A stretch of DNA of 60,812 nt, from contig JAUWYX010000010.1 of the NCBI GenBank assembly GCA_030615625.1, positions 1-60,812 of the forward strand, written 5' to 3'. Both the position numbers and the translations under genes were made by a program. Origin of the DNA: Dehalococcoidia bacterium. Lineage in GTDB: Bacteria; Chloroflexota; Dehalococcoidia; GIF9; AB-539-J10. The notes under the pieces were generated by a model. That model did not search any database. It had not been told where the DNA came from and saw nothing but the letters and a program-made list of their open reading frames with translations. The first letter of the stretch is position 1. Every line of letters begins with the position of its first letter. Positions 42,219-58,631 of the stretch are shown here, one piece after another.

Positions 42219-43559
42219 TTACCTTCCTTCCAAAACCTTGTTTACAGCCCACATTTTCTTTTCTGCATCCAGGTGAGTTTCAATTGTGCTTTCCTCTGAC
42301 CACTCTTCAAGCCAGTCGTTAAAGTGCTTGTCTATCAGCCTTTCCCTGACTTTCTCTTCAAGCTCATGGTCACCACTATCTACAACCTTTACGAGCCAAT
42401 AGCCACCGGTGGTTTGGACCGATTCATCTTTAACTGGCTCGCTTACCTCATTGGCAGTAATGTTGAAGGCAACTTCGTCGAAAGCCTCGCTGCCCATATC
42501 CCCTTCTTTCAGCCAACCAAGCTCACCACCTTCATCGTTGCTTTCATGCTGGGAATATTCCTTAGCTAGAGAGCTGAAGTTTCCGCTAACCAATTCGGCT
42601 TTAACTTGCTCTGCCTCCGCCTCGCTGCCCAGCAGCATAGCTCTGGCTTTTATCTCGTCATCTTGCTTATCAGTAACCTCTATAAGCCAGTAGCCGACCT
42701 CTTTGGTCGCTGTTGCATTATAAATAGGCTGGCTTATCTCGCCGGGGGTAAGGTTAAAAGAGGCATCGACAATCAAGGTATTCGGCATTAGCTCCTCGGG
42801 CAGCCAACCCAAATCGCCTTCAATCGAGGAGTTACAGGAAAACTCCTCAGCTAAAGCGGTGAAGTTGCCACCGGCCTCGATTTCGGCTATTAGCTCAGTA
42901 GCTACCTCTTGGCTCTCTACAAGCATTACTTGCACATGAGCTTGCTCCATTGTGTCAGGCAGCTGGGAACCAAAGTATTCCCCAAGCTTTTCCTGCAATA
43001 AGGTAGACCTAATTATATCTTGATATACCCTATCATTGGGCCACTCATATTCTGTTAGCCCCGTGTCTATCTCCTCAGAAGTAACTTCAATGCCCAGATT
43101 TTTAGCTCCTTGTCTCAGTAATTCAGTATTGACAGTATAATCGGCGACCTGACCAGTAATCATATCAGCAATATTATCGGTATTTTCAGACAAATCGGAG
43201 ATGGCATTGGAGGTCAGCAACTGTATGGTTTCTTCACGGGTAGCATTGTAAGCCTGCATATAGAAATCGAGGTAAGTATTAACGGTAAAATTAATGTAAT
43301 TGTCAACGTAAATATCAAGCATCTTTACGTAGTATTCCATAGTAAAGGGGACGCCGTTTACCTCAATCACAACCTCACGCATGGGATCGCTCTTATAGTC
43401 CTCATAGTACTCATAACCCACCCAGCCCAAAATGCCAGCCAGGAAAACGACGGCAGCGATTATCACAATTCGGCGTATTTTCATCTGGCGCTGCCATTTG
43501 GAAAGTTGGTGCTTAGTAGGGGCTCGCTGAGGTGTAGTTTTTTTCTGTTTCTTAGCCAA
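42219..43559 (-). CDS. membrane-anchored parvulin-type peptidyl-prolyl isomerase
   Basis: A 446-residue protein. A basic N-terminus and a membrane helix (about 30-48) are followed by a SurA-like helical domain with GVPFTMEYYVKMLDIYVD. Two parvulin-like domains (about 205-305 and 308-405) each have a GDLGW or GELGW-L-E core and a YWL-V strand. The C-terminus (DKHFNDWLEEWSEESTIETH) completes the SurA-type fold. It probably helps exported proteins fold. It lies eight bases upstream of hom. Confidence 0.85.
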   Translation of the reverse strand: MAKKQKKTTPQRAPTKHQLSKWQRQMKIRRIVIIAAVVFLAGILGWVGYEYYEDYKSDPMREVVIEVNGVPFTMEYYVKMLDIYVDNYINFTVNTYLDFYMQAYNATREETIQLLTSNAISDLSENTDNIADMITGQVADYTVNTELLRQGAKNLGIEVTSEEIDTGLTEYEWPNDRVYQDIIRSTLLQEKLGEYFGSQLPDTMEQAHVQVMLVESQEVATELIAEIEAGGNFTALAEEFSCNSSIEGDLGWLPEELMPNTLIVDASFNLTPGEISQPIYNATATKEVGYWLIEVTDKQDDEIKARAMLLGSEAEAEQVKAELVSGNFSSLAKEYSQHESNDEGGELGWLKEGDMGSEAFDEVAFNITANEVSEPVKDESVQTTGGYWLVKVVDSGDHELEEKVRERLIDKHFNDWLEEWSEESTIETHLDAEKKMWAVNKVLEGR

Positions 43560-43633: not shown

Positions 43634-43707
43634 CGGGGTGTAGCGCAGCCTGGTAGCGCACCTGAATGGGGTTCAGGTGGTCGGAGGTTCAAATCCTCTC
43701 ACCCCGA
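43634..43707 (+). tRNA. tRNA-Pro (GGG anticodon)
   Basis: Acceptor arms CGGGGTG/CACCCCG, a D-arm with GCGC/GCGC, anticodon stem CCTGA/TCAGG around the loop ATGGGGT (anticodon GGG), and a T-arm GGAGG-TTCAAAT-CCTCT. The CCA end is not encoded. Its 3' half is repeated exactly 2,374 bases downstream. Confidence 0.95.
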
Positions 43708-43935
43708 CTCTAAATTTCAAGATTTTGCTAACGGATTGCTAACGGGATTGTGGGGACGCAATGACATAGAACTTTTGCCGTTCAGGGTGCGTGTCTAATG
43801 TGGCATGGTCACAATACAACATTCCCAAATTGTTTCGGATACAACCTTAGACCATGTGTTTTATCTCAAAAGACAGCGCTGGCACCGAAAATACCCTTTT
43901 GCAGGATAAATTACAGTACCAGCGCCGGCGATATA

Positions 43936-45630
43936 TTAGTCTTTTGGAATGACTGGTAAGAGCAAGTGGGAGGGGTATTTACCATCGCGGTAGATTTTAT
44001 GAAGTGTTGGTTTGCTGCTGCAGACGTGCCACATTACATCATATGTTTCGGGGTCGGTAGGAATATCGATGCTTGATATCTCCAGCTTGATGCGATGGCC
44101 TGCCTTAAACGTATAAGAAATCGGGCGTAGCTGAGCGACGTATTCGTTGATCTCCCCCGGTTCTACGGGAATTGATTTTGTGAAGTCGTGTCCGATTTCC
44201 CAGGGCGTTGTCTTATTCTTATCGAGGGCCCTGAAAGAGGCTTTGAGCCAGCCCGAAGCCAACGGTAGTATGCCGCTGTTATCCGAAGGTTCGTCTCTTA
44301 CGTCTATTCTGAAGTTTGTATCGTCTGCATCTATGGCAGCGTAAAAGATTATCCTCGGGGGGCCGGTTACCTGCAGGTCTTCGGCTAGGGGCGGAGTCAG
44401 ATACTGAACACGGGCTCTTTTTTCCGATACATAAAGGGGCTGCTGGACAAAACAATCCGGAACATCGTTGTAATTGTCCGGTTCCGGCGACAAACTCTCC
44501 AGGCTGTTAAGATAGAATTTCGTCCAGGCAGTACTTTCAATCGGCCACTCATTCGCCTTGGACCATTTGTTGTCCACCGCAGTATAGTATCTTATCGGTG
44601 GCTCATCCATAATACCCGTATCAATACCCTTAAGCCAGTAATCATACCATCTCAAGACCTCTTCCTGTTGTGTCTTCCACGGGCGGGCCCCCATATTAGA
44701 ATACAGTAAGAATTTCTTGGGGACTTTCAGCGTGTTATAGATATTAATCTGCGGTTGGGAGAAGAAGCTGAATAGAGGCCCTCCCACATAAGTGGGGACT
44801 TTTATCTTGTTAACCCTGTTGCAAACTGACCTCTCCCAATAATATGGCCCATCATTGGGATTCAGCATGAAGTCGAAGAGGACAGGATTTTTCTCCGGAT
44901 ACTTGAGCAAATGGTAGAGGTAAGGGTATTGTCTTAAATCCGGATTACTCAGGGCTTTCTCTACAAGCTGTTCCAGCTTTTTTGGAGGTGTGTTCTTTAT
45001 CATAGCTGATATAACATTCTTGGGGGCATAACCACACCGTGCGGGATACGTGCCGGTGTACAGACCGTAGAGAAATATATTCAGAACTCCGCCTTCATAC
45101 AAACCGTGGTTATATAAGTCGTCGGCGAATATCTCCCAGGGACAGATTGCTTTCAGATGTGGCGGCTGTTCCGCGGCTACAAAAAGCTGGATTGTGGCAA
45201 AATAGCAGATACCCGCCATCCCGATTTTGCCATTGCACCAGGACTGCTGCGCCAACCACTCTACAATATCGGCGCCATCCTCTCCTTCCTTTTTAGAAAA
45301 GAGGCCTTCATATTCACCCTCCGAGTAGCCTGTGCCTCTCAAGTCTCCTATCACGTAAACGTAACCCCGGGGCACGAAAAAGTCGGGGTTGCCAGCTTCT
45401 ATTGATGCTTCAAAAACCGATTTTCCGAACGGTTGCGGAGGTGTGTCAAATGTTTGTACCTCCTTGCCGTAAGGAGATAAAGCAAGCAAGGCCGGGAACT
45501 TGCCAGGTGCGTCCGGACGGTAAATATCAACCGCCAGCCGCACTCCATCACGAGCTGGAACATAGACATTATTTTCGACCTTTATGCCGTACATTGACTT
45601 AAACCCAACCTCTTTCTTACCGCGTGCCAT
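43936..45630 (-). CDS. CocE/NonD-family hydrolase homologue, catalytic residues altered
   Basis: A 564-residue protein with AGGAGG before the ATG. Family signs are the N-terminal VYVPARDGVRLAVDIYRP, DLRGTGYSEGEYEG and IVEWLAQQSWCNGKIGMAGI, and the C-terminal jelly-roll domain (PGEINEYVAQLRPISYTFKA, GHRIKLEISS). The nucleophile position GxSYxG reads GICYFA (Cys142), the expected GWYD acid site reads GGPLFS, and the usual GPWGH is replaced by YSNMGARPW. It may therefore not be a serine hydrolase. It is the only gene in the interval bounded by the tRNA-Pro duplication. Confidence 0.8.
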   Translation of the reverse strand: MARGKKEVGFKSMYGIKVENNVYVPARDGVRLAVDIYRPDAPGKFPALLALSPYGKEVQTFDTPPQPFGKSVFEASIEAGNPDFFVPRGYVYVIGDLRGTGYSEGEYEGLFSKKEGEDGADIVEWLAQQSWCNGKIGMAGICYFATIQLFVAAEQPPHLKAICPWEIFADDLYNHGLYEGGVLNIFLYGLYTGTYPARCGYAPKNVISAMIKNTPPKKLEQLVEKALSNPDLRQYPYLYHLLKYPEKNPVLFDFMLNPNDGPYYWERSVCNRVNKIKVPTYVGGPLFSFFSQPQINIYNTLKVPKKFLLYSNMGARPWKTQQEEVLRWYDYWLKGIDTGIMDEPPIRYYTAVDNKWSKANEWPIESTAWTKFYLNSLESLSPEPDNYNDVPDCFVQQPLYVSEKRARVQYLTPPLAEDLQVTGPPRIIFYAAIDADDTNFRIDVRDEPSDNSGILPLASGWLKASFRALDKNKTTPWEIGHDFTKSIPVEPGEINEYVAQLRPISYTFKAGHRIKLEISSIDIPTDPETYDVMWHVCSSKPTLHKIYRDGKYPSHLLLPVIPKD

Positions 45631-46000
45631 TGTTCCTCCTTTTGGGCTTTCTTCGCCTCGCCTTTTACAAATCTACTTCAAGCTGGCGTACATATACCGC
45701 CATCGGCCATCAGCGGCATAGGTAAAATTCTATTGATGTACTAATGATCCCTTTCATGAAGCATTTTCCAAGTTTCCCTCATACGCCTTATCTTTTATAG
45801 AATAATAACTCATTTTTTTAGAAGTTTAAAGCAATAATAACAGATTTTATGAATATTTTCATCGACGACATCCGCCTCCATTATAATGTAGAATGCCAGA
45901 AGTAACTTTTCAGTCATGTGACTATTCAAGTATTGTCACGTCTCTCTTGTTCAGTCTTCAACTATTGATTCATGGATTAGATAATCCTATAATACTACAA
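45631..46000. other. intergenic, no gene seen
   Basis: AT-rich spacer upstream of the CocE-like gene and up to the 46-bp repeat. A frame (45893-46255) crosses it but runs through the repeat and the tRNA fragment and has no ribosome site. I see no other feature. Confidence 0.5.
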
Positions 46001-46047
46001 GAAAGGAGGCAAGCGGTCTCTGCCTTTTCTACTAGCTACATAGGGTT
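46001..46047 (+). repeat. 46-bp dispersed repeat, copy 1
   Basis: It contains GGAGGCAAGCGGTCTCTGCC (46005-46024) and ends AGCTACATAGGGT, running straight into the duplicated tRNA-Pro 3' half. A relative lies at 57693-57740 beside the metF 3' end. Confidence 0.75.
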
Positions 46048-46083
46048 CAGGTGGTCGGAGGTTCAAATCCTCTCACCCCGACT
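46043..46083 (+). repeat. duplicated tRNA-Pro 3' half (attR-like)
   Basis: The 41 bases are identical to 43669-43709, from the anticodon loop to two bases past the tRNA 3' end. The 5' half of a tRNA is absent. The base before the match differs, and identity stops abruptly on both sides. This is the standard footprint of integration into a tRNA gene. Confidence 0.92.
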
Positions 46084-46099
46084 TTGTATTGAAAACAAA

Positions 46100-46255
46100 G
46101 TGGTCAGGCCACCTGAGTGGCCTAAAAAGCAAAAGGTGGCTAAATTTGATCCAGACCACTCAGAAAATTATGTCACTGCGCCTGAGAGTACTTTAGTCTA
46201 CATGACTACGCCAGAAGGAAGAAGTGAATTAGCCGGATTTCTTAAAGACCAATAA
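46100..46255 (+). CDS. short hypothetical frame after tRNA fragment
   Basis: From a GTG at 46100 the frame gives 51 residues, including RPPEWPKKQKVAKFDPDHSE and YMTTPEGRSELAGFLKDQ, with coding-like composition but no ribosome site. It may be the remaining end of a gene cut by the insertion, or a small gene ahead of the next one. Confidence 0.3.
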   Translation: MVRPPEWPKKQKVAKFDPDHSENYVTAPESTLVYMTTPEGRSELAGFLKDQ

Positions 46256-46280
46256 ATGATATGGCAACGAGGTGATTTCA

Positions 46281-47051
46281 ATGATAATAAGATTCCTGGG
46301 GACACATAATGCGGAGTCCAAAGACACGAGGCTCGTGTCCTTCCTAATTAATGATGTCCTCGCTGTAGATGCCGGGAGCCTGGCTTCAGAACTGACCTTC
46401 ACCGAGCAGAGAAAGATACAGGCGATATTGCTTTCTCACGGTCATTACGACCATATCAGGGCGGTCCCCGCTTTTGCCTTTAACAATTCTGACCGCACTA
46501 CCAAAGTCATCGCCACTCCGAAGACCCTTGAAATTCTCTCGTCTCACCTCATTGACGGCGTCGTCTACCCCAAATTCACCAGCGATGCCTCATTCCTGCA
46601 AAAGGCAACTATTAAACTAGTCCCGCTGGAACCTTTCAAACCGCAGAATATAGAAGGCTATGAAGTCATGGCAGTGCCTGTGCGACACAATCTTGACGGC
46701 GTGGGCTTTGAAATAACTTCTGGAGATAGAAAAACCTTATTCTATACGGGCGATACCGGTCCCGGGCTTTCCTCTATATGGGGCAACATATCTCCGCAAT
46801 TGATAATAGCTGATGTAACTTGGCCAAATAGTCTCGCCAATGCAGCTAAGGATGCAGGTCACCTTTGTCCGGAGATGCTCAAGGAGGAGTTGATTGAGCT
46901 CCGTCGAGTAAATGGTTATCTGCCAAGGGTGGCTGTAATTCACGTGAGTCCACAACATGAGCCTGAGATAGAACGAGAAGTTAGAGAAGTAGCTAAATTA
47001 CTGGGGACATCAATTGATATTGCTCACGAGGGTGAAGAGCTTATCCTGTAG
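46281..47051 (+). CDS. metallo-beta-lactamase-fold hydrolase
   Basis: The ATG at 46281 with GAGG eight bases upstream gives 256 residues. The metal motif SHGHYDHIRAVPAF (H-x-H-x-D-H) is followed by VRHNLDGVGFEI, YTGDTGPG and a late AVIHVSPQHEPE. The layout resembles class II cAMP phosphodiesterase or RNase Z-like enzymes. A cyclic-nucleotide phosphodiesterase role is attractive given the cNMP-binding protein and adenylate cyclase nearby, but this is inference. Confidence 0.75.
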   Translation: MIIRFLGTHNAESKDTRLVSFLINDVLAVDAGSLASELTFTEQRKIQAILLSHGHYDHIRAVPAFAFNNSDRTTKVIATPKTLEILSSHLIDGVVYPKFTSDASFLQKATIKLVPLEPFKPQNIEGYEVMAVPVRHNLDGVGFEITSGDRKTLFYTGDTGPGLSSIWGNISPQLIIADVTWPNSLANAAKDAGHLCPEMLKEELIELRRVNGYLPRVAVIHVSPQHEPEIEREVREVAKLLGTSIDIAHEGEELIL

Positions 47052-47120
47052 TAGAAATGTACAGCTATCCATAGGCCATAGGCTGTTTGGAGGATAAAAA
47101 GGGACGCTTTAGTCAAGCGG

Positions 47121-47951
47121 TTATTTCTTGTAATCCTGGGATTCTGTCCAGTAACCGAAGGCCGATCCAAGCTTGTCCTGCAATTTTCTGGTCTTGATGA
47201 AAGCTTCAAAAAAGGTCTTGCAGTCATCAAGCATTGTCTGGGCATACACTATGGCTTTGGGCAAGTCCTCATCGGGTGTACTGGATACTCTACCATGACC
47301 GGGGTAAAGCTGCTTAATCTTCAGATTACTCAAACGCCGAACTGAATTCACATAGTCGCTGACGTTACCGCCCACAGCTATCTCGGACAGAGTGCCTCCA
47401 GCAAACACTGTATCGCCGGTGAAGAGCAATCCCGCTCTTGGCTCATATAGGCAGATGCAACCCGAGGTGTGCCCCGGTGTATGTATTACCTGAAGTTCAT
47501 AATTTCCAAGGTCAATTATAGAACCGTCCTCCAGCCAGACATCTACCCAAAAGGGTTTACTAGATTGGTCACGGTATCTTCTGAAGGTGACAAATTCATC
47601 CTGTAACTCCAGCTTGTTGGCCGCTAAACGGTGTGCTGCTACTACAGCAGTCCGGTGGAAGAAGGCGGTAGCACCAATATGGTCGTAGTGTTCATGTGTT
47701 AGTATAATCAGATTTATGTCCCTTACACGCATACTTAATTCGGTAAGCCGACGTTTCAAAACGGTGAACTTGGCGGCAACCCCGGTATCAATAAGAACAT
47801 TCTTGGTATCGCCCTTGATAAGATAGATATGACTTCCGGGCTTTTCGCTACGAAGCTGGTAGATTCCCGGCTCCAGTTCAATTGCTTCGGATGGCTCTGG
47901 CTGCACTTCAGCCTTAGTCTCCATCCGAGGACCAGGTGGCTTCTCTTTCAC
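47121..47951 (-). CDS. metallo-beta-lactamase-fold hydrolase (glyoxalase II-like)
   Basis: A 276-residue protein with ILTHEHYDHIGATAFFH, QVIHTPGHTSGCICLYEPRA, LFTGDTVFAGG and LYPGHGRVSSTPDED, the four metal-binding segments of the glyoxalase II-like branch. A Pro/Glu-rich N-terminus precedes the fold. The GTG start overlaps the stop of the cNMP-binding gene by four bases (GTGA). Substrate unknown. Confidence 0.85.
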   Translation of the reverse strand: MKEKPPGPRMETKAEVQPEPSEAIELEPGIYQLRSEKPGSHIYLIKGDTKNVLIDTGVAAKFTVLKRRLTELSMRVRDINLIILTHEHYDHIGATAFFHRTAVVAAHRLAANKLELQDEFVTFRRYRDQSSKPFWVDVWLEDGSIIDLGNYELQVIHTPGHTSGCICLYEPRAGLLFTGDTVFAGGTLSEIAVGGNVSDYVNSVRRLSNLKIKQLYPGHGRVSSTPDEDLPKAIVYAQTMLDDCKTFFEAFIKTRKLQDKLGSAFGYWTESQDYKK

Positions 47952-48418
47952 GGTGAGGCTTCTTCAGGGGATAATCGTTTATCCATTTCTCGCAGTCTCT
48001 GACACAGAGTGTGCATGAGACTGAGGGCGAATTCTGGCTGTTGTCGCACCATAAACATGAATCTAGCTCTATCCATAACAATTAACTCGGTGTCGTCCTC
48101 AACAGCGGAGGCAGTAGCTGACTGCGGGGAGTCATCCACCAGAGCCATCTCACCGAAAAAATCACCGGGATTCAGGACAATCAGCGGGATCTTTTGAGTT
48201 TCGTTCTGCCGAACCGAGAGCATTACCCTCCCTCTATGAATGAGATACATCTCACTGCCGGTGCTTCCTTCTTTAAATATGACCTCGGATTTCCGGTACC
48301 TTTGCCGGAATTTGGATAAGCCTGCAGTCTCGTCTACTCTGTCCTCTGCCATAGTCATATCTTGTTTAACACTATGAGAAAGGTTACTTCTGCTGCGCTG
48401 GACCCCTTCCGCTCCCAA
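47948..48418 (-). CDS. cyclic-nucleotide-binding domain protein
   Basis: A 156-residue protein from TTG 48418; an ATG at 48358 is the alternative. The cNMP-binding fold includes SEVIFKEGSTGSEMYLIHRG, VLNPGDFFGEMALVDDSPQS and RSATA-like QSATASAVEDDTELIVMDRA. The phosphate-binding loop has Ser-Ala rather than Arg-Ser. No helix-turn-helix follows, so it is not a CRP-type regulator; it may control its coupled hydrolase. The adenylate cyclase lies 2.4 kb away. Confidence 0.8.
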   Translation of the reverse strand: MGAEGVQRSRSNLSHSVKQDMTMAEDRVDETAGLSKFRQRYRKSEVIFKEGSTGSEMYLIHRGRVMLSVRQNETQKIPLIVLNPGDFFGEMALVDDSPQSATASAVEDDTELIVMDRARFMFMVRQQPEFALSLMHTLCQRLREMDKRLSPEEASP

Positions 48419-48430
48419 AGTAAAACCCTA

Positions 48431-48490
48431 TTGACATATCGCTTGTACCATAATATAATATAGTACTTTAGTACATTGTAATAATGTACT
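48431..48490 (+). promoter_or_regulatory. consensus promoter with downstream operator-like repeat
   Basis: TTGACA (48431-48436) and TATAAT (48454-48459) are 17 bases apart. Just after the expected start point, AGTACATT (48470-48477) and AATGTACT (48483-48490) form an inverted repeat with a five-base centre, preceded by a related AGTAC. It would drive the FecR gene with a leader of about 100 bases. Confidence 0.65.
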
Positions 48491-48568
48491 ATCCAATGCT
48501 ATTCGGATTATCACATTAGCAGCTAAAAAAGTCAAAATCAGTTGAGAGAAATTATAAGGAGCCCTACG

Positions 48569-50086
48569 ATGCGTAAAAAACTGCTGGCAATGCTTGTTCT
48601 ATCTATTCTGGTGGCCTCAACTTTAATCGGCTGTGACGGCGGTGGGGGTTCACCATGTCCTTCGACACTTACTATACTTTCCATAACCGAGGGTGATGTG
48701 TCCGTAATGAAGGAAGGTACGGACGATTGGGTAGAGGCGGAGATCGAGATGGAGCTAGAAGTCGGAGATACCATAAAGACCGGCAATAATTCTGGCGCCG
48801 ACATTACTTTTTTTGACGGCAGCACTATGGAAATGGAGGCGGGTACCGAGATCGAAATTCTCTCACTCGATCTTGCCTGTGACACTGGCGTCACGACCAT
48901 TACTCTTGAGCAGACAATAGGGACCACGATAAGCCGCGTGACGAAGCTTCTCGACCCAGGATCTAGCTACGAAATCGAAACATCAACTGGTGTGGCGGGG
49001 GTGAGGGGTAGTATCCTGATAGTTACCGTTGGCGGAGATGGCACAACTTTGATAACTAATGAGGAAGGGAATATATATGCCATTGGGCAGGGAGTGGAAC
49101 TGCAGATACCCGAGGGGCGAACAGGTATTATTGTATCCGGTCAGCAGCCGGAGCTCATGAATGATCCCCCGGTGGCAGAGGACGATGCCGCCACTACCGA
49201 TGAGGACAATCCGGTAACTGTTGCCGCTCCAGGAGTCCTGAGCAATGATTCCGACCCCGATGTTGGTGATACCCTAACTGTAACTGCACTGGATACGAGC
49301 GGGACTGTAGGTGCAATCAATGCCTGGGATGCAGATGGCTCCTTCACCTATAACCCTGATGAACAATTCGAGTATCTACAGGCTGGCAACTCAACCACGG
49401 ATAGCTTCACTTACACGGTATCCGATAGCAATGGCGGCACCGATACTGCTATTGTGACCATTACCATTAATGGTGTCAACGACGCGCCGGTAGCAGTAAA
49501 CGATAGTGCCATTACCGATGAGGATACCCCCGTTATCATCGATGTCCTGAATAACGACTCCGATAATGACGGTGATACACTGACTGTGGACTCAGTAACT
49601 CAAGGGACTAATGGTTCAGTCGCCAATAACGGGAGCCATGTCACCTACACCCCAGCCATTGGCTTCAATGGTACCGACAGCTTTAACTATACCGTAAGCG
49701 ATGGTAACGGCGGTACCGATACGGCTACCGTCACCGTCAACGTTACTGTCACTGAAACGCCTGCCACTATCAATGTTCAAATAGATACGGGGGCGATGGC
49801 TTCAATATTTATTTGGGACGATACCACTGATGGGTGGGCTATAGACGAGGATACTGGAGATCCAGTAAATGGGGAGCATCACGAAACATCTTACACCATT
49901 ACTGTTGCTGGAGGACACTATTATTATGTCTGGGTAGAGGCGACAGGCGAAATATACCATGTGAAGGGCTGGCCTAAGGCTAAGGATTGGATTATCACAT
50001 CTGCTCCTGTAGGTGATGCTGAGGCTGCCTGGGGATATGCGGACGCAGGCTCTAACTACCCAGTTCATTTTAGTGAAATTACTTAA
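48569..50086 (+). CDS. FecR-domain lipoprotein with cadherin-like repeats
   Basis: AAGGAG lies seven bases before the ATG at 48569; 505 residues. The signal peptide ends in a good lipobox (LIGC). A FecR domain follows (about 32-150: ITEGDVSVMKEGTDDW, TFFDGSTMEMEAGTEIEIL). Two cadherin/VCBS-like modules come next (about 200-400), with NDSDPDVGDTLTVTALD and TDSFTYTVSDSNGGTDTA. A C-terminal beta domain of unknown type follows (FIWDDTTDGWAIDED). It is exported and probably binds a partner at the cell surface. FecR proteins often accompany CHASE2 cyclases, as here. Confidence 0.88.
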   Translation: MRKKLLAMLVLSILVASTLIGCDGGGGSPCPSTLTILSITEGDVSVMKEGTDDWVEAEIEMELEVGDTIKTGNNSGADITFFDGSTMEMEAGTEIEILSLDLACDTGVTTITLEQTIGTTISRVTKLLDPGSSYEIETSTGVAGVRGSILIVTVGGDGTTLITNEEGNIYAIGQGVELQIPEGRTGIIVSGQQPELMNDPPVAEDDAATTDEDNPVTVAAPGVLSNDSDPDVGDTLTVTALDTSGTVGAINAWDADGSFTYNPDEQFEYLQAGNSTTDSFTYTVSDSNGGTDTAIVTITINGVNDAPVAVNDSAITDEDTPVIIDVLNNDSDNDGDTLTVDSVTQGTNGSVANNGSHVTYTPAIGFNGTDSFNYTVSDGNGGTDTATVTVNVTVTETPATINVQIDTGAMASIFIWDDTTDGWAIDEDTGDPVNGEHHETSYTITVAGGHYYYVWVEATGEIYHVKGWPKAKDWIITSAPVGDAEAAWGYADAGSNYPVHFSEIT

Positions 50087-50269
50087 GACTAGAAGGGGTT
50101 AGCTGAGTTGCTGGACTATTGTTAATACCTCGCAGTAGCTAAAAAATTTAAAAATTAGCTCAGAGAAATTACAAGTTGCGTGCCAGTAAAGCATTGCAGA
50201 TAAACAATATATATCCTCAGAAGCCTATGCTGCTAGTAAAACCTCCGCAGCACTTATAGAAAGCCTACC

Positions 50270-50638
50270 ATGCGTAATAAATTGCTGTTAATGCTTGCTC
50301 TGACAATTCTAGTGGCCTCAACTGCGGCTGGCTGTGGCGGGGGTTCGCCATGTCCTTCGACGCTTACTATACTTTCCATAACCGAGGGTGATGTATCCGT
50401 AATGAAGGCAGGTACGGATGATTGGACAGAAGCGGAGGTCGAAATGGAATTAGAAGTCGGAGATACCATAAAGACCGGCGGTAATTCCAGTGCCGAAATT
50501 ACTTTCTTTGACGGCAGCACTATGGAGCTGGAGGCTGGCACCGAGATCGAAATTCTCTCACTCGATCTTGCCTGCGACACTGGCGTCACAACCATCACTC
50601 TTGAGCAGATGATAGGGGATACCATTAGAAGGGGTTAG
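50270..50638 (+). pseudogene. truncated FecR-domain duplicate
   Basis: The 122-residue frame copies the signal peptide and FecR domain of the upstream gene (about 90% in protein) and stops after ITLEQMIGDTIRRG, where the parent continues. The sequence after its stop (AGAAGGGGTTAGCTG) matches the sequence after the parent's own stop at 50089, so the copy is a whole-gene duplicate with an internal deletion. A further FecR-like remnant, YYDGEVVLEAGDEK-stop-IPRGE, lies at 50701-50760. It still has a signal peptide and could make a short lipoprotein. Confidence 0.7.
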
Positions 50639-50846
50639 CTGGATTGCCAGGCTATTATCAATACGTTTTCTAGCTTGGTTGCACCAAGATAAGAGCAGTA
50701 TATTATGATGGCGAGGTCGTCTTAGAAGCCGGCGATGAAAAATAGATACCTAGAGGCGAATCAAGATTACAGTTAATCCGTTACCCAAGCGTAGAATAAC
50801 TAGGCGCCAACGTAAGCGCCTTTATCATACTTTAGTAATCATAGGG

Positions 50847-52652
50847 GTGGGCTGCCTATTTATCCTTGTGGCTCTTCTGGTTCAACCGTTCTATAGCATC
50901 AATCTGTGGCTGTCAGACCAGCTTTTCACGTCTCAACCTCCTTCTGCTGTTATTGTTATCGCTGGTATTGATGACAATACCCTTGACACTTATGGACGGT
51001 GGGCAGAGTGGCCACGCAGTCTCCATGCCCAGGCCATCGATAACTTAAACCAAGCTGGAGCCCAGGTAATCGGTTTTGATGTCATCTTCGTTGATAGTTC
51101 CTCCGATGATGAATTGCTGGCGACGGCAATGGCCGAAGCGGACAATGTTGTCCTGGCCGCTGTTGGCACCCAACTTGTCACCCGGGCTAGAGCTGAGATT
51201 ACCTATGATAATTTCCTGCTGCCGATAGCTTCTCTAGAACAGGCTGCCAGTAATATTGGTCACGCTAATGTGATTCCCGATGGCGATGGCACAGTAAGGC
51301 GACTACCGTTGATTGTTAAGTCAAGCTCAGGACAGGTCTATCCCTCATTGACCCTGGCTGTACTTCATAGCCTATTCTCCATGACTTTACCGCAGGAATA
51401 TCTGCTAGAAAATGGCACGGTTAACTTGTTGGCTCGTGATATTCCAGTTGATGCTTCGTACTGTATACGCATCAACTTTTCCGCCGACTTTAGACAACGA
51501 CCCTATGTCCCCTATGGCGATATTATCAGTGGCGACTTTGACCCGTCGCTAGTCAACAACAAGATAGTATTGATCGGGATGACCGCTACCGGTGAACCCG
51601 ACACCTGGGCAATCCCCACTGCAGTCAGCAATGTTCCCGGAGTTTTTATACACGCTGGTGCCATGGATACCGTCCTCACAGAGCGCTTCTTAACAGAGCC
51701 TGGCCCCATCGTCACATTAATGATTATGCTGCTGCTAATTGGCATCACTGCCTTTACCTTGCCCCGTTGTGGGACCTGGTACTGGACCGATATAGTTAAA
51801 GGAGCGGGAATAACGGTAGGCCTATTTGTTGCTTACCTGATAGTCGGCTTCTTTGCTTTCGACGGAGGATATATCCTCTGTCTATTTTATCCCCTGTTGC
51901 TACTTCCAGTACTCTATGTCAGTAATGTTATTTATATGGTTGTTAGTGAGCAGTCGGATAAACGGTTTGTCAAGGATCTTTTTGGTCGATATATTTCGCC
52001 CCAAATAGCCAGGGAGATAGTTAGCCGAGCTGATACTGGGGAACTTCACCTCGGGGGCGAGCAAAGGGAGGTAAGTGTTCTCTTTGCTGATATCCGTAAC
52101 TTCACTCAGATAAGTGAGCAGTTGCCCCCTGAAGCTGTAGTGGAAATGCTCAATACTTACTTATCAGCTGTAACCGATGCAGTAGTACAGCACGATGGTA
52201 TAGTTAACAAGTTTGGCGGTGATAACATCATGGCAGTATGGAACGCGCCGCAATCTCAACCAGAGCACGCATTGTCGGCAGTACAGGCAGCGTGGGAAGC
52301 ACACCAAAAAATTGCTGAATTGCAGCAAAGCGATAGCCGGCTGCTCCCGGTGCAATTTGGCATTGGCATTAACACTGGTATAGCCTTAGCCGGCAATATA
52401 GGCTCGGTTGGGCGCACCGAATATACCGTCATCGGAGATTCCATTAACATTGCTTCACGCATTTGTAGCAGCACCCCAGGCGGTGAAGTCTGGATCGGTG
52501 CTGAGACGTACAATCAAACAAAAGATTATATAGAGGCCGAGGAACTCGAGGCAAAGAGGCTTAAGGGGAAGTCAGCACCCATTGAGTTATATCGAGTAAC
52601 TGGGTTGCGCTCTACGACCCCTCAGAACAAAAGTAGGCCCTCGCCCTCCTGA
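50847..52652 (+). CDS. CHASE2-domain class III adenylate/guanylate cyclase
   Basis: A 601-residue membrane protein. The N-terminal helix is followed by an extracytoplasmic CHASE2 sensor (about 30-280: VIAGIDDNTLDTYGRWAEWP, GFDVIFVD), three membrane helices (about 290-372) and a cyclase domain (about 400-575). The cyclase domain has VSVLFADIRNFTQISEQLPP, NKFGGDNIMAVWNAP and NTGIALAGNIGS. Metal-binding Asp residues are present. The only usual start, GTG 50847, falls inside the hydrophobic segment. The frame stays open 31 codons upstream, encoding a basic stretch (PKRRITRRQRKR), with no ATG, GTG or TTG there. Confidence 0.88.
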   Translation: MGCLFILVALLVQPFYSINLWLSDQLFTSQPPSAVIVIAGIDDNTLDTYGRWAEWPRSLHAQAIDNLNQAGAQVIGFDVIFVDSSSDDELLATAMAEADNVVLAAVGTQLVTRARAEITYDNFLLPIASLEQAASNIGHANVIPDGDGTVRRLPLIVKSSSGQVYPSLTLAVLHSLFSMTLPQEYLLENGTVNLLARDIPVDASYCIRINFSADFRQRPYVPYGDIISGDFDPSLVNNKIVLIGMTATGEPDTWAIPTAVSNVPGVFIHAGAMDTVLTERFLTEPGPIVTLMIMLLLIGITAFTLPRCGTWYWTDIVKGAGITVGLFVAYLIVGFFAFDGGYILCLFYPLLLLPVLYVSNVIYMVVSEQSDKRFVKDLFGRYISPQIAREIVSRADTGELHLGGEQREVSVLFADIRNFTQISEQLPPEAVVEMLNTYLSAVTDAVVQHDGIVNKFGGDNIMAVWNAPQSQPEHALSAVQAAWEAHQKIAELQQSDSRLLPVQFGIGINTGIALAGNIGSVGRTEYTVIGDSINIASRICSSTPGGEVWIGAETYNQTKDYIEAEELEAKRLKGKSAPIELYRVTGLRSTTPQNKSRPSPS

Positions 52653-52750
52653 TGTCCACCCGTGCCTTTAAGGAAAGTCTCCCGGATTAGTCTCGCTAGA
52701 TTATCAGGCGCAACAGGCTTGATTAGATAATCAAAAGTTGTGAAATAGCA
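52622..52750 (-). pseudogene. response-regulator receiver fragment
   Basis: On the minus strand the peptide TTFDYLIKPVAPDNLARLIR followed by ETFLKG matches the last beta-strand and helix of a receiver domain (the conserved K-P of D-Y-L-x-K-P). The first four-fifths of the domain are missing. It lies between the cyclase 3' end and the methyltransferase stop, in a different frame from the latter. Confidence 0.65.
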
Positions 52751-52757
52751 AACGTGC

Positions 52758-53441
52758 TCACTCGCGTTTCTTAAGCGTAATCTTCATCCAAATATCTGTC
52801 AGCGCCATCTGGTAGTTGCCTTTGAATGCCGTTTGCTCTAGCATGCCCTTAATTACGGTCTGGTATTCTTCCCCGGTGAAACCATGTATTTCAGAGACTT
52901 TAGGTCCAAGTCGGCCAACCAAGAACCCATATTCCTCGTTCACCTTTCTTCTATCAGCCTGGTTGTTGAAAACCTCAGGACACCCATCGTATATCCAGGC
53001 TTCCTTGCCGGCTTTTAGAACACGATAGCACTCATCAAACACCATGCGTGGTGTCTTCCAATGGTGCGAAGCGCCCGTACTAATCACAAGGTCTATTGAA
53101 CTATCCTTGAAAGGGAGTTTGGCCGCATTGCCAAACACAAATCGAGCATTATCAACGCCTTTTGCATGGTGTCTTGCAATCTTGACCATTTGCCTACTGA
53201 GATCGATGCCATAGACCTGTAGGCCGGGTGACCTCTTTGCAATCTCTATTGACAAATAGCCTGTTCCCGAACCTAAATCAAGAATAGTCCCGTTTCCCAT
53301 CTTTTCCACTATGTCATTAGCTATCTTTGTTTCAGGCTTTCGAAGAACTTTTGCCACTGTCGCATTGTAGAATATGGCACCAGGGGTTGGGATTGCCTCA
53401 GGCTTCCTCAGTACATCCTTGATGAATCTTGTTAGAGACAT
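52758..53441 (-). CDS. class I SAM-dependent methyltransferase
   Basis: The ATG at 53441, six bases after GAGGA, is preferred over 53447; 227 residues. SAM-binding motifs are TILDLGSGTGYLSIEIAKRS, VYGIDLSRQMVKIAR, ARFVFGNAAKLPFKDSSIDL and the TGASHHWKTP segment. It is a UbiE-like methyltransferase with unknown substrate. Confidence 0.85.
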   Translation of the reverse strand: MSLTRFIKDVLRKPEAIPTPGAIFYNATVAKVLRKPETKIANDIVEKMGNGTILDLGSGTGYLSIEIAKRSPGLQVYGIDLSRQMVKIARHHAKGVDNARFVFGNAAKLPFKDSSIDLVISTGASHHWKTPRMVFDECYRVLKAGKEAWIYDGCPEVFNNQADRRKVNEEYGFLVGRLGPKVSEIHGFTGEEYQTVIKGMLEQTAFKGNYQMALTDIWMKITLKKRE

Positions 53442-53630
53442 GATCATTCCTCACGCTGGATTTACTTGTACCTATTATACAACTTATACAACGTTTGGAT
53501 TCATCGCTGCGTCGTCCAACCAGGGTACAGTCTGGGAACCTTGCTCTCGATTCTTACAGAGGGGCTATCTACTCGGATGAACACAACATTGCACATCCCG
53601 TCATTTTGTTTAGCGAGGGCATCAAAAGAT

Positions 53631-53668
53631 AAGGGGAGAGGCTCGTTAATTTGGCTCTCCCCTTTTTC
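53631..53668 (+). terminator. orphan terminator hairpin
   Basis: AAGGGGAGAG (53631-53640) pairs with CTCTCCCCTT (53655-53664), 14-base loop, T-run to 53667. The T-run fits the plus strand, where no gene is seen within 900 bases upstream. The rest of 53442-53795 holds nothing else I can support. Confidence 0.65.
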
Positions 53669-53795
53669 CTGAAATGCGCTTTCTAGCCCTGAAGTACTGA
53701 TACTGCTAGCTCAACTTGCACATAAAGCCAAGTGTCACGGAACTAGGTCGATTCGCTAGATTGTTTGTCTTCCCACGAAGTGTAAATTTGACAAT

Positions 53796-55679
53796 TTAGG
53801 GGATTGTAAGGACATAACCTGCGATCCCCTCATACTGATACCCGCTTTGGGGAGCTACTTCACCATTCGGATCTGTTGTATAGAAATGGTCCCCAATTGA
53901 ACTCTTCCACCATCTAAATATAGTGCCACCCGTCAATAGTGCAAGGGCTCTCTCACAGTTTATTCTCCCATATCCAAAATCATTATCTTTGCCCGCGGGT
54001 CCGAGATTATCTGCCGTGGTTTCGATAATCTCTCTCACTCTCCTGGGTGTAAGAGTTTGATTGATTGAGAGTATAAGTGCGGCTAAACCTGATACGTGGG
54101 GAGCAGCCATAGATGTTCCGTCCCAATTAGCAAGGGTTGCTGCTGCTTGGTTTTGGCCGGTCCAATAATTCGGCACAGTTGATCGAACGTTAACTCCAGG
54201 TGCTACCACATTCACCTCCGACCCAACATTAGAAAAATTGGCGAGGTTATTTCCATTATCAATTGCTCCGACAGCAATTACATTATCATAGTCCTTTGAA
54301 TATGCAGCAGGCCAACCAACACGATGTCTAAGACCTGTAAGATGATCACTATCGTTGCCAGTAGCGGCTACTAAAAGACATCCATTGGTGCGTGCCAATT
54401 TTACGGCAATCTCAACAGCAGCCGAAGGTGACCCGGCTGTCCCGCTATAGTTGATTACGACCCTGTAACCCCTCGCCAGCCCGAAAGCAACAGCCTCAAT
54501 TATAGCAGCAGCGAGGTCTGAACTTGTTCCCTGCCCAATCCATGTTCCATTTGGCAGTAATACCGGTTCGAATATTTTGATTACAAACACAGAAGAATTC
54601 CAACAAAGGCCAGCGATATCGGTGTTATTGTTGGTGTCTGCTGATGCGATTCCAGTGACATGTGTCCCATGTCCTAAATCATCCATGGGAAAGTTGTCGT
54701 CATGAACATAATCATTACCTAAAACGAATCTATTTTCGTCGGCAATGTCAGGGTGGGACAAACTACTTAAGCGAGTTTCCACAACATAACCTGCGATCCC
54801 CTCATACTGATACCCGCTTTGAGGGGCTAGTTCACCATTTGGATCTGTTGTGTAGAAATGGTCCCCAATTGAACTCTTCCACCATCTGTGCAATGCAACG
54901 GTACCAGGAAGTTGCACCGTAGCGATGTTTCCAATGTTGCCTTCGGGTTGATACCCGCTTTGGGGAGCTAGTTCGCCATTTGGATCTGTTGTGTAGAAAT
55001 GGTCCCCAATTGAACTCTTCCACCATCTGAAGAATGGAGTGGTACTAGCTTCATTCGCCAGAAACAACCTAAAACGCGCTCCCTCATATCTATATCCTCC
55101 ACCATGTGCCAATTCTCCTAAAGGATCCGAGCAAAAAAAGTGGTCACCAATGGATGGATTCCACCAACGATAAATTGCCCCCTGGGCTCTCTCCGGACCA
55201 GCGATACCTGAATCAATAACAGCAATCAGCACATTAAGCCTTCCAATAGAGTTATTCCAGGCCCAAGGCGCTCTCACTCTTTCAAGTCCCCATTGGTTAG
55301 CCCTGAGGGCGGCAAGGTTGGCGTATTCGTCTGGAATGACTTGACAAGTTTCCTGGATAATATTTGGTTCCGCGTACTCTACCAAGGGATGTTTAGCAAG
55401 ACGTTGTATGATTCTAAATAGGTCCTCGGCCTCCGGCACCTCAATTCGTATCATTCCCTGTGTGCTGAAATCGCGAATAATCTTTGAACCCTTGGGCAAT
55501 TGTTTAAATAGGTTACGCTTAATGTCTTCTTTCTGCTCTGCCACCTGAATTCGTTTTAGTTGTTCTTCTCTGATACCGACAACGATTTCCCCCGAAACGT
55601 AGTCGACTCTTCTTCTCTTCCAAGTCCCTCTAACGATCTTCTTTCCCCTAATCTCTCGGATTGGCTCCTTTTTTTTCAT
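53796..55679 (-). CDS. subtilisin-family protease with internal DUF5648 repeats
   Basis: AGGAGG precedes both a GTG (55685) and this ATG. The protein has 627 residues (numbering from the GTG). No signal peptide. An inhibitor-like propeptide region is at about 30-110. Asp158 lies in LIAVIDSGIAG, His342 in DLGHGTHVTG, Asn444 in ATGND and Ser525 in GTSMAAPHVSG. Between Asp and His sit three DUF5648-type repeats (about 172-205, 219-250, 266-301: RWWKSSIGDHFYTTDPNGEL). A fourth ends the protein. The repeats are almost identical in DNA. Confidence 0.88.
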   Translation of the reverse strand: MKKKEPIREIRGKKIVRGTWKRRRVDYVSGEIVVGIREEQLKRIQVAEQKEDIKRNLFKQLPKGSKIIRDFSTQGMIRIEVPEAEDLFRIIQRLAKHPLVEYAEPNIIQETCQVIPDEYANLAALRANQWGLERVRAPWAWNNSIGRLNVLIAVIDSGIAGPERAQGAIYRWWNPSIGDHFFCSDPLGELAHGGGYRYEGARFRLFLANEASTTPFFRWWKSSIGDHFYTTDPNGELAPQSGYQPEGNIGNIATVQLPGTVALHRWWKSSIGDHFYTTDPNGELAPQSGYQYEGIAGYVVETRLSSLSHPDIADENRFVLGNDYVHDDNFPMDDLGHGTHVTGIASADTNNNTDIAGLCWNSSVFVIKIFEPVLLPNGTWIGQGTSSDLAAAIIEAVAFGLARGYRVVINYSGTAGSPSAAVEIAVKLARTNGCLLVAATGNDSDHLTGLRHRVGWPAAYSKDYDNVIAVGAIDNGNNLANFSNVGSEVNVVAPGVNVRSTVPNYWTGQNQAAATLANWDGTSMAAPHVSGLAALILSINQTLTPRRVREIIETTADNLGPAGKDNDFGYGRINCERALALLTGGTIFRWWKSSIGDHFYTTDPNGEVAPQSGYQYEGIAGYVLTIP

Positions 55680-55895
55680 AATCACACGTCCTCCTGTATT
55701 CTAAGTTAACCAATTTAATTGTAGCTCTTATTACTAAATTGTCAATATCTTAATATACCTAAATGACAAAATTACTATAGAATATCTAATATGCTCACAG
55801 TTCAAGAGAGCGAGATAGTGTCGGGAAAAAGTTAGGATAACAAAACGCCAGAAAGTATAATCCCAAATGACCGACTTATTCTGTGCTTGAACTGC

Positions 55896-57017
55896 TCAGA
55901 ACCCAACGGGTTTCAAATTTGAAATAGGCCAATTGTCGAACCTAAAACCATCTTCAGCGATACAACCTGGGTTTCTGGCTAATATAGGATCCGCTGAAGA
56001 AGCCAGCCTATCAATAAGAGTGTTTTTCTTATCGTCTGCGAGGCTTTCCCACCACCTAGGACAGATATGAAGATTCTCAGAGAACTCAAAAAAGAATCTT
56101 ATCAAAGCATCTGTCATTCTGTCAGATGATAATGCTCTTAGACTGTCGATGAATGGCCGACACGTGGGATCACTCTCCGGTAGCCATGTAAAGACGACCA
56201 GACCATGATCTCCACTGTAGAAAGAGGCGAAATTAAGTAAGTGTGGAGTCATATTAAGATCAACTATATTTTGCAGTTGATTGCCGGCAAAATCCTGTTC
56301 AGGAAATATACCTGCACTACACATTACTGGCGGTGCAGAGTCTAATTCGATGATGAATGCTCGGACATTGTTGAAATCTTCACTAAGCAAGACATTGTCA
56401 TATATCTTTTTGTAAAACTCATTGTCGCGTAGGCCTGCGGATGCGCCCGTATCAATAAGTGCGTTCATATATTGGATAGCGAGCTGTCTTTCCAATGGTT
56501 TACCTCGATCGGCTTGGCGACGTATGTCTGATGAAGAAAATAGTGCTTTCTTGGTATAAATTTCTCTTGCCAAGGCGCGATAAGCAAGCAAAAAACACTG
56601 CTCTTGAGAACCTTGAAAAGGCTGATTCTCTATCTTGGAGAAGATCTTGCTATCGTGTACCGAACAAAAGCCGTTGAAGGTGGAAGCCCTACTTATACCT
56701 ATCAATTCGGGCTGCAGTCTACCCTTATACTTAATGATGTTTTCCAAGCTCGGGATAAAGCTATACACGTGCCCATTACAAGCAATATGCTGTAGGCTAC
56801 TTCTAGGGACTGTATGGGCTTTTACAAAGATTTTTGAACAATCGATTTTCATAGACGCAGGTGCTAAGCAGTCCTTGGTGCTGAAGGCCTTTTTGTGTTC
56901 TTTAGTTGCCTGCCAGATACTAACCGGCTCTTGCGTTTCTCTGTGCATATGGCACCTCTTATATTTCAGGCCAGAGCCACACCAACACCGGTCGTTTCTA
57001 CCTAGTTTCCTCCTCAT
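55896..57017 (-). CDS. SEC-C motif protein with HTVPRS/FCSVHD core
   Basis: GGAG lies nine bases before the ATG at 57017; 373 residues. The N-terminus is a zinc-binding SEC-C motif (GRNDRCWCGSGLKYKRCH). A conserved-looking core follows with KIFVKAHTVPRSSLQHIA and GFCSVHDSKIFSKIE, which could form a second metal site. The C-terminal two-thirds are unassigned. Proteins of this shape are often found in accessory regions, sometimes near defence genes, but no defence partner is visible here. Confidence 0.65.
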   Translation of the reverse strand: MRRKLGRNDRCWCGSGLKYKRCHMHRETQEPVSIWQATKEHKKAFSTKDCLAPASMKIDCSKIFVKAHTVPRSSLQHIACNGHVYSFIPSLENIIKYKGRLQPELIGISRASTFNGFCSVHDSKIFSKIENQPFQGSQEQCFLLAYRALAREIYTKKALFSSSDIRRQADRGKPLERQLAIQYMNALIDTGASAGLRDNEFYKKIYDNVLLSEDFNNVRAFIIELDSAPPVMCSAGIFPEQDFAGNQLQNIVDLNMTPHLLNFASFYSGDHGLVVFTWLPESDPTCRPFIDSLRALSSDRMTDALIRFFFEFSENLHICPRWWESLADDKKNTLIDRLASSADPILARNPGCIAEDGFRFDNWPISNLKPVGF

Positions 57018-57235
57018 GGCTAGATGCTCCGAACTTCTATTAACTCTAATTACGCTACACCTTGTTGTCAAGACAATAATTAATCCACTTGTCGCGAGCT
57101 AGCAATTATACGTCATAAAATAAGAGTTAGGAGCTAGAGTGACACAAAAAGCCAGATTGTGTCTTCAGGATCTGCTTCTTGGTTTCCGCTTCAATTTCCA
57201 GTTTTTTTCGCCTTAGTTTCCACTTGTCTCCATTA

Positions 57236-57286
57236 TTGACAAGGTATTGACAGGGTATTGACATTATAACATATATGTTATATAAT
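57236..57286 (+). promoter_or_regulatory. promoter/operator of the HigA-like regulator
   Basis: TTGACA (57258-57263) and TATAAT (57281-57286) are both consensus with a 17-base spacer. The spacer and -10 contain a perfect 18-bp palindrome, TATAACATATATGTTATA (57265-57282). TATTGACA occurs three times at an exact 11-base period (TTGACA at 57236, 57247, 57258). Confidence 0.75.
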
Positions 57287-57318
57287 ATATTGTAATAAGT
57301 ATTTTAGGTGGGTAAAGA

Positions 57319-57615
57319 ATGGTAAACAAAAAAGCTACGAACTATGACGAATTTGAGGCAAAGCTTCTCGAAAAGCCTGAAATCCGAAAGGAATATGAGG
57401 CTTTGAAGCCCAAATACGATATGGTAAGAGTCCTGATAAAGCGCAGGAGCAAACTGGGATTGAGCCAGACGGAGCTTGCCAGGATTATCGGGACAAGACA
57501 GCCTGCCATATCCAGACTGGAAAAAGGCGACTATAATACCACACTCAGCACTCTTTTTAGGGTAACGGAGGCGCTGGGTTTGGATATTTCTCTGAAAGCT
57601 AGGAGAGCAACCTAG
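57319..57615 (+). CDS. HigA/XRE-type helix-turn-helix regulator
   Basis: A 98-residue protein with AGGTGGG six bases before the ATG. The N-terminus (FEAKLLEKPEIRKEYEAL) is typical of HigA-like antitoxins. The helix-turn-helix is at about 41-80: KLGLSQTELARIIGTRQPAI and SRLEKGDYNTTLSTL. No RelE/HigB-type toxin frame lies on either side, so it looks like an orphan antitoxin or stand-alone repressor, probably bound to the palindrome in its promoter. Confidence 0.85.
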   Translation: MVNKKATNYDEFEAKLLEKPEIRKEYEALKPKYDMVRVLIKRRSKLGLSQTELARIIGTRQPAISRLEKGDYNTTLSTLFRVTEALGLDISLKARRAT

Positions 57616-57692
57616 CTCAACAACGATAAAGTCCGTATTTAGAGAGACCAAATCCCCCCTTAATACGAGGGTGGGAAACGCTATTAGGATCT

Positions 57693-57740
57693 GAAAAGGA
57701 GGCAAGCGGTCTCTGCCCCTTTCACAAGCTACATGGGGTA
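57693..57740 (+). repeat. 46-bp dispersed repeat, copy 2
   Basis: GAAAAGGAGGCAAGCGGTCT and on to AGCTACATGGGGT, about 85% identical to 46001-46047. It ends exactly at the metF stop codon (57741). GCTAC and GTAGC flank its ATGGGGT end. Confidence 0.75.
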
Positions 57741-58631
57741 CTAAGTAGCGAGTCCCGCCGCTTTCAGGATATCTGGAACCACCTCTTCCCGACCTATGGC
57801 CATGACATGGACTCCGTCGCACATAGATTCCTCTTTTATAGTGGCAATCATCCGACCCGCGATTTCTATACCTTTATTGATTGCTTCACCTTTGGGAGCA
57901 GCCGCTAATTCATCAATCAAGTTTTGGGGCACAAAGACGCCCGGGACATTTTCAGTCATATACTTTGCCATCCTGGCTGACACAAGCAAAATGATGCCAG
58001 CTAATATCTTGACCGGGAATTGGCGGGCATATTCCATAAACTTAGCAAATTTTTCCAGGTCATAGATGGCTTGAGTCTGAAAAAATTCGGCACCGGCTTC
58101 AATCTTCTTTTCAAACTTGATTAACTGAGGCTCAATTGGGTTCGCTTCAGGTGTGACTATGGCTCCGGCACAGAACTCCACAGCCCCGTCAAGCTCATTC
58201 TCCCCAAGGTCTTTGCCCGCTTCCATCTGCCGAATTGTCTTCAGCAACTGTGCTGAATCCAGGTCGAAAACGCCCTTGGCCGCCTTGTGGTCGCCAACTA
58301 CAACAGCATCTCCAGTTAGGCAGAGGACATTTCTTATGCCCCTGGTATACGCAAAGAGAAGTTCAGCTTGAAGGGCAAGCCGATTACGGTCGCGGCAAGT
58401 CATCTGTAATATGGGCTCGCCTCCTTGTTCCTTGATGGCCAGACAGCCACCAATGGAGGGAAAGCGCATTACGGAACTCTGGTGGTCAGTAACATTCAGC
58501 GCGTCTACTTTATCCTTGAGAAGGTCAATATGGTGGAGCATCTTCTCAATGTTTGTCCCCTTTGGTGGACCGATTTCGCTGGTTATCACAAATTTATCAG
58601 ATTTGAGAACTTCCCTGAAACTTTGCGCCAT
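57741..58631 (-). CDS. metF: methylenetetrahydrofolate reductase
   Basis: A 296-residue TIM-barrel flavoprotein. It has VITSEIGPPKGTNIEKMLHH, ALNVTDHQSSVMRFPSIG, a folate/FAD region LCLTGDAVVVGDH, and GAEFFQTQAIYDLEKFAKFM. It interconverts methylene- and methyl-tetrahydrofolate. The metV-like partner lies ten bases upstream, as in acetogenic bacteria where MetVF works in the Wood-Ljungdahl methyl branch; methionine synthesis is the alternative role. Confidence 0.93.
   Translation of the reverse strand: MAQSFREVLKSDKFVITSEIGPPKGTNIEKMLHHIDLLKDKVDALNVTDHQSSVMRFPSIGGCLAIKEQGGEPILQMTCRDRNRLALQAELLFAYTRGIRNVLCLTGDAVVVGDHKAAKGVFDLDSAQLLKTIRQMEAGKDLGENELDGAVEFCAGAIVTPEANPIEPQLIKFEKKIEAGAEFFQTQAIYDLEKFAKFMEYARQFPVKILAGIILLVSARMAKYMTENVPGVFVPQNLIDELAAAPKGEAINKGIEIAGRMIATIKEESMCDGVHVMAIGREEVVPDILKAAGLAT

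Follow-up and report, generated by a model that had tools for sequence, protein, structure and literature searches.

A tandem array at tRNA-Pro in a Dehalococcoidia bacterium whose tRNA-proximal unit is a putative CIME-like element carrying a CocE/NonD hydrolase gene

In Dehalococcoides, tandem islands at the ssrA gene carry variable cargo between repeats of this RNA gene's 3′ end, and each repeat is immediately preceded by a conserved motif (McMurdie et al., 2011, PMC3146451). No integration module is present in 15 of these islands, which were proposed to be cis-mobilizable (PMC3146451). Cis-mobilizable elements (CIMEs) that are made by accretion have been described as decayed ICEs or IMEs that are moved together with an adjacent element (PMC5704250). 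ICEclc is integrated in a tRNA gene and has at one of its ends the outward promoter Pcirc, listed as that of the integrase gene intB13 (PMC9286271, PMC2892462). In Prochlorococcus, tycheposons serve as tRNA-anchored, tyrosine-recombinase-linked carriers of variable metabolic cargo (PMC10872708).

The window analyzed here is a stretch of 60,812 nucleotides from a Dehalococcoidia bacterium (assembly GCA_030615625.1, contig JAUWYX010000010.1). ARAGORN found one tRNA gene in it, an intact tRNA-Pro with the anticodon GGG at gene position 35 (43634..43708, plus strand), which the repeat identifies as the integration target. The att copy at the 3′ part of this gene (43669-43709, plus strand) is identical to 46043-46083 over 41/41 bp, as stated in the original prediction; the extended alignment covers 51 bp at 92% with a spacing of 2374. 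Searching the 1.62-Mb genome with a 40-nt pattern (≤3 mismatches) revealed exactly two copies of this tRNA-Pro tail, and the reversed pattern used as control gave 0 matches. Leftward, the first mismatch between the copies is G43668 versus A46042. Since G43668 is the first anticodon base, the identical stretch begins within this loop of the tRNA, the anticodon loop, as predicted; its other end lies one base past the ARAGORN tRNA end instead of the two bases given originally. The 3′ end of the target is directly repeated at the far boundary and the target is restored, which is the layout of a site-specific tRNA island. The copy at 46043-46083 is also a partial tRNA, on the same strand and downstream of the intact tRNA-Pro, as would be left by decay of a tandem tRNA-Pro gene. 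However, its 5′ flank is unlike a tRNA 5′ half (local score 4, reached by 1000/1000 shuffles), and in place of this half stands a motif, END, that is common to other genomes. Decay of a tandem tRNA is thereby refuted. The repeat is a site-specific integration scar, and the original interpretation was supported as to a site-specific insertion that targets the tRNA and has its junction in the anticodon loop.

The conserved right end of the units at this site consists of a sigma-70-like promoter followed by AAAGGAGGCAAGCGG..GCCTTTTCTACTAGCTA, joined to the core CATGGGGT, after which a tRNA-Pro 3′ fragment usually follows. The END motif itself, AAAGGAGGCAAGCGGTCTCTGCCTTTTCTACTAGCTACAT, is located at 46002-46042 in the unit next to the tRNA (43710-46042, 2333 bp; hereafter unit A). 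END adjoins tRNA-Pro 3′ fragments in further species of this genus and also in a single genome from a different genus within the family. When 52 family genomes were searched with a 45-nt END pattern, 7 had a match and the reversed control gave none; looser matching yielded 21 END junctions in 10 genomes. Alignment of 18 junctions revealed a strongly conserved END block, the DNA upstream of it being not conserved except for a promoter-like hexamer pair. Over all 21 junctions the mean best sigma-70 score in the 50 nt before END was 9.05 of 12, as compared with a mean of 7.10 and a maximum of 7.52 in 300 shuffles. In unit A, the promoter-like TTGATT-N17-TATAAT at 45965-45993 faces outward across the att site and, in the integrated array, towards the first gene of the adjoining region B (46272, plus strand). 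The AAAGGAGG within END is unlikely to be a Shine-Dalgarno sequence for ATG GGG TTC, the two being ~30 nt apart. Viral contigs gave no match to an exact 27-nt END pattern, and no phage link was found. The END junctions of many genomes start at the same few anticodon-loop bases with the same motif, and integrases adjoin the same tRNA (see below); both observations argue against homologous or illegitimate recombination that, with no integrase involved, would have placed a partial tRNA copy beside the CocE gene. Stacked repeats can rearrange homologously, and this could help to swap cargo between shared ends, but as an explanation of the repeat such recombination is disfavoured and very improbable.

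Both ends of unit A resemble those of another unit. Its left end (43710..43815, plus strand) was recognized by alignment to a unit of the congener G007, its right end (45942..46042, plus strand), with the outward promoter-like pair and then END, by the same alignment and the promoter score. Positions 1-106 of unit A match the left end of the first G007 unit at 80%, and positions 2233-2332, the last 100 bp, match its right end at 82%; the two units align at these ends only and their cargo is unrelated. The left end is clearly common to only one or two other units. It contains GCTAACGGATTGCTAACGG direct repeats, possible candidates for integrase arm sites, and the ends of unit A probably are integrase-binding sites.

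Between the tRNA-Pro repeats there is one substantial ORF (45630-43936, minus strand), in agreement with the single large gene claimed for the 2.37-kb interval. The claimed absence of an integrase was likewise confirmed: PF00589 had no match anywhere on the contig of unit A, so that the own integrase of a site-specific tRNA island is missing. Keeping attL and attR around a single cargo ORF, with integration and transfer genes absent, unit A has the composition of a CIME. The ORF (43936..45630, minus strand) encodes a CocE/NonD hydrolase of 564 aa with Peptidase_S15 and PepX_C domains (Pfam, NCBIfam); it scored 289 bits against TIGR00976 (cut-off 66) and had no PHROG match. Residue 142 is a Cys, in the motif GICYF, in place of the usual nucleophilic Ser. 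Among 79 relatives this position is Cys in 20 and Ser in 59, with Cys in all covered relatives of at least ~49% identity and Ser in more distant ones. The Cys-bearing relatives come from this phylum as well as others, and H535 shows almost no variation among the relatives. The proteins with Cys at this position are possibly a Cys-nucleophile clade. The CocE gene with short flanks recurs at 97-98% identity in two other MAGs, in both near sequence resembling the 3′ half of tRNA-Arg(TCT), most clearly in L004, and may have travelled on elements with another tRNA target.

Unit A is not the lone 2.37-kb insertion that was originally described but the tRNA-proximal unit of a tandem array of ~14 kb between tRNA-Pro(GGG) and metF. 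A lone insertion is ruled out by a second END at 57695 and by an IntA-type arm to the right of the fragment. Because this second END sits directly before metF, the array was delimited as 43710-57740. It is flanked by two conserved chromosomal genes, a ppiC-like peptidylprolyl isomerase gene on the tRNA side (42219..43559, minus strand; ORF and congeners) and a metF-like gene on the far side (57741..58631, minus strand; congener orthologs). The displaced tRNA-Pro 3′ fragment (46043..46083, plus strand), the exact copy of 43669-43709, forms the junction between unit A and the older region B. The left arm of region B (46084..46159, plus strand) is of the type that separates tRNA-Pro from the integrase IntA in congeners (alignment to L106, L110, L117 and L108): 46040-46159 matches these arms at 84-88% over ~120 bp, tRNA part included. 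The left end of region B is therefore IntA-type, and no integrase follows it. The DNA to the right of the fragment was also considered as the flank of an empty site, which was dropped, since congeners carry integrases behind that flank.

The cargo of region B (46160..57694; ORFs, Pfam and collinearity with G010) comprises two metallo-beta-lactamase-fold proteins, a cNMP-binding protein, FecR-like repeats, an adenylate cyclase, a methyltransferase, a subtilase, a SEC-C protein and an XRE regulator. An anti-phage role of the SEC-C and HTH proteins was rejected, as the PADLOC matches span only small generic motifs. The FecR-like ORFs are duplicated at 48542-50638 of the window, with a 514-aa protein and, behind it, a shorter copy that matches it at 83% over 132 aa; G010 carries further copies. 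Region B (46000-53452) is collinear with G010 at 89-94% and may comprise more than one old unit; unit A is the newest of at least two stacked insertions at the site.

At the far end of the array, the second END (57695..57740, plus strand) is joined to CATGGGGTAC beside metF and has no tRNA fragment. END abuts exactly the CATGGGGTAC of the metF flank in the window and in G010; where no END lies directly before it, the 3′ flank of metF reads CATGGGGTAC in G017 and CATGGGATAC in G015. This junction can be read in two ways, either as a secondary attachment site with the core ATGGGGT or as an ordinary right end minus its tRNA fragment. In two genomes of other genera (L145, L146), tRNA-like 3′ ends were seen within ~200 bp of the metF 3′ end, hinting that this neighbourhood is used more widely.

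The locus was compared among draft genomes of the same genus and family, which are incomplete assemblies. Its chromosomal frame is ppiC - tRNA-Pro - metF, and ppiC lies beside tRNA-Pro in most congeners whose contig reaches that far. In G013 the distance from tRNA-Pro to metF is ~130 bp and the interval is empty; it measures ~5.0 kb in G015, 7.3 kb in G009, 14.0 kb in the window and 24.5 kb in G007. The gene content differs among the filled congener loci (5-25 kb), so that the site is empty in G013 and differently filled in G015, G009, G007 and G010. The original prediction had proposed aligning the tRNA-Pro locus in relatives as a check, and the arrangement was indeed not shared. Neither an excised circle of unit A nor a locus precisely lacking unit A alone was seen in the assemblies. 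G010 has END and, at the place where the window has CocE, an RCC1-repeat cargo in front of the same fragment; the two genomes thus have the older region in common but not the tRNA-proximal unit, a pattern to be expected from the entry of new units at the tRNA. G009 and G018 each have two contigs whose 5′ flanks are identical and whose sequences part within the tRNA 3′ half or immediately behind it; this is suggestive, though no proof, of insertion polymorphism in the sampled populations.

As a separate observation, RCC1-repeat proteins recur near these tRNA-linked elements in several genomes (L173 4431-6647 on G000:C3, L118 4483-5658, L104 at the contig end, L004 3-290). A small MerR-like helix-turn-helix protein, by eye excisionase-like, adjoins a tRNA-Arg-like fragment in L003 (1387-1749, minus strand) and L173 (2684-3031, minus strand).

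Complete identity of the repeats had been taken to imply a recent insertion or strong constraint. Identity alone gives no date, as incoming units would bring the tRNA 3′ half with them. Within the genus, most tRNA-Pro fragments agree with the consensus in this core anyway, and the perfect identity of the two window copies is therefore a weak clock. T-stem variants (e.g., GGTGG/CCACT, GCCGG/CCGGC) were found in resident tRNAs or fragments with both stem strands changed in match, which fits incoming elements that bring a working tRNA 3′ half.

Tyrosine integrases are present at the same tRNA in congeners. IntA starts ~100-150 bp 3′ of tRNA-Pro(GGG) in G006, G018, G009 and G017, with only an N-terminal remnant retained in G009. 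At tRNA genes, IntA (~331 aa) occurs in a trio together with a ~259-aa protein, for which no Pfam, NCBIfam or PHROG match was found, and a second recombinase of ~229 aa that contains a zinc-ribbon-like insert; this trio is located at tRNA-Pro(GGG) in G006 and at tRNA-Val in G002 and G012 (L106 2424-5299; also L157 and L158). A partial IntA lies 3′ of tRNA-Pro(TGG) in G010, and more distant relatives lie near tRNA-Lys or tRNA-Gly in G016 and G019. A different integrase, IntC, sits right after the fragment in a G012 unit that is closed by END and a fragment. The associated recombinases are PF00589 tyrosine recombinases. Altogether, 11 closed units were delimited (window A and B, one in G012, two in G010, one in G015, two in G007 and three in G001), 10 of them without integrase, that of G012 being the sole exception; these counts are approximate because some G001 and G007 boundaries are degenerate and region B may be several units. 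The statement that no integrase is present is true of unit A and describes the usual state of such units, whereas integrases do adjoin the same tRNA in congeners. The genome of unit A has no close homolog of IntA or IntC, its IntA homologs being ~24-36% identical, so nothing in it is known to move unit A. The best IntA homolog (C3:16334, ~34-36%) was rejected as the cognate integrase for its low identity and because it adjoins a tRNA-Arg-like 3′ sequence.

Taken together, these observations are best explained, at a probability of roughly 0.6, by unit A being a non-autonomous, CIME-like element whose insertion was catalyzed in cis or in trans by a tyrosine integrase. An integrase encoded elsewhere would have recombined circular unit A with tRNA-Pro(GGG), the crossover taking place at the core ATGGGGT in the anticodon loop. 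The tRNA 3′ half of the circle would have replaced the resident half, keeping the tRNA functional, and the displaced half would now lie at 46043-46083. Older units would already have been stacked between tRNA-Pro and metF when unit A was inserted ahead of them. IntA- or IntC-type integrases presumably act on it in cis or in trans. In the circle, the outward right-end promoter would read across attP and, in autonomous relatives, drive the integrase at the left end. Unit A may still be able to move.

Unit A could instead be a fixed relic, i.e., an autonomous tRNA-Pro island that lost its integrase and most of its genes and is now immobile, the repeats being mere scars. The contig without an integrase and the genome without a close IntA or IntC are consistent with this, and integrase loss does occur here, as seen from the IntA-type arm without IntA in region B and the IntA remnant in G009. 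On the other hand, both ends of unit A and its perfect att copies are retained, independent deletions would not readily yield the G007 unit, in which the same ends enclose unrelated cargo, and 10 of the 11 closed units are without integrase. A fixed relic is therefore possible but rather doubtful. A reading that goes further than a CIME-like element is a cassette-like, non-integron system, in which two ~100-bp ends enclose one or a few genes, the right end bears its own outward promoter that activates the next unit, loading is repeated at one tRNA gene, tyrosine integrases are shared and the metF side offers a second site with the same core; this we regard as unlikely.

The tRNA-Pro array is real and well explained in outline, and the mobility of unit A is putative. 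Related bacteria collect different cargo genes at this site, usually without the inserting enzyme. The locus provides a compact case of a streamlined Dehalococcoidia lineage acquiring single genes at one tRNA, by means of units that have no integrase, exchange their cargo and keep conserved ends with a predicted promoter, and the unit ends predict sequences that an integrase must recognize.

Among the known systems, the tandem ssrA islands of Dehalococcoides are the nearest precedent. They belong to the same bacterial class and share 3′-end repeats, a motif by the repeat and integrase-less units. However, they use the T-loop of the tmRNA (ssrA) and CcrB-like serine recombinases, whereas the present array has smaller units, the anticodon loop of tRNA-Pro as target and PF00589 recombinases, and so is not of the Dehalococcoides ssrA type. 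The ssrA-island principle is thereby extended to tRNA-Pro and tyrosine integrases. Unit A resembles a CIME in having flanking att sites, no integration or transfer genes and a stacked position at a shared target; it differs in that no functional adjacent element is visible and that two units share ends around unrelated cargo. With ICEclc it shares integration at a tRNA and an outward-facing promoter at one end, which by analogy may fit a Pcirc-like design; ICEclc, in contrast, is large and conjugative and has its own integrase, whereas the promoter of unit A is predicted only and has no integrase to drive. Tycheposons are 4-200 kbp in size and carry a recombinase, whereas the tRNA-Pro units are mostly ~1-12 kb and nearly all without one. 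Finally, the array resembles integron cassette arrays in its small units, each with one or a few genes, which vary between strains and probably enter at one fixed end. However, it is anchored at a tRNA gene, its units bear tRNA 3′ fragments, and IntA (66.6 bits) and IntC (39.2 bits) score far below the integron-integrase cut-off (integrase_gron, 265 bits). Judged by this IntI score, the tRNA-Pro array is not an integron, and its closest counterparts are the ssrA islands.
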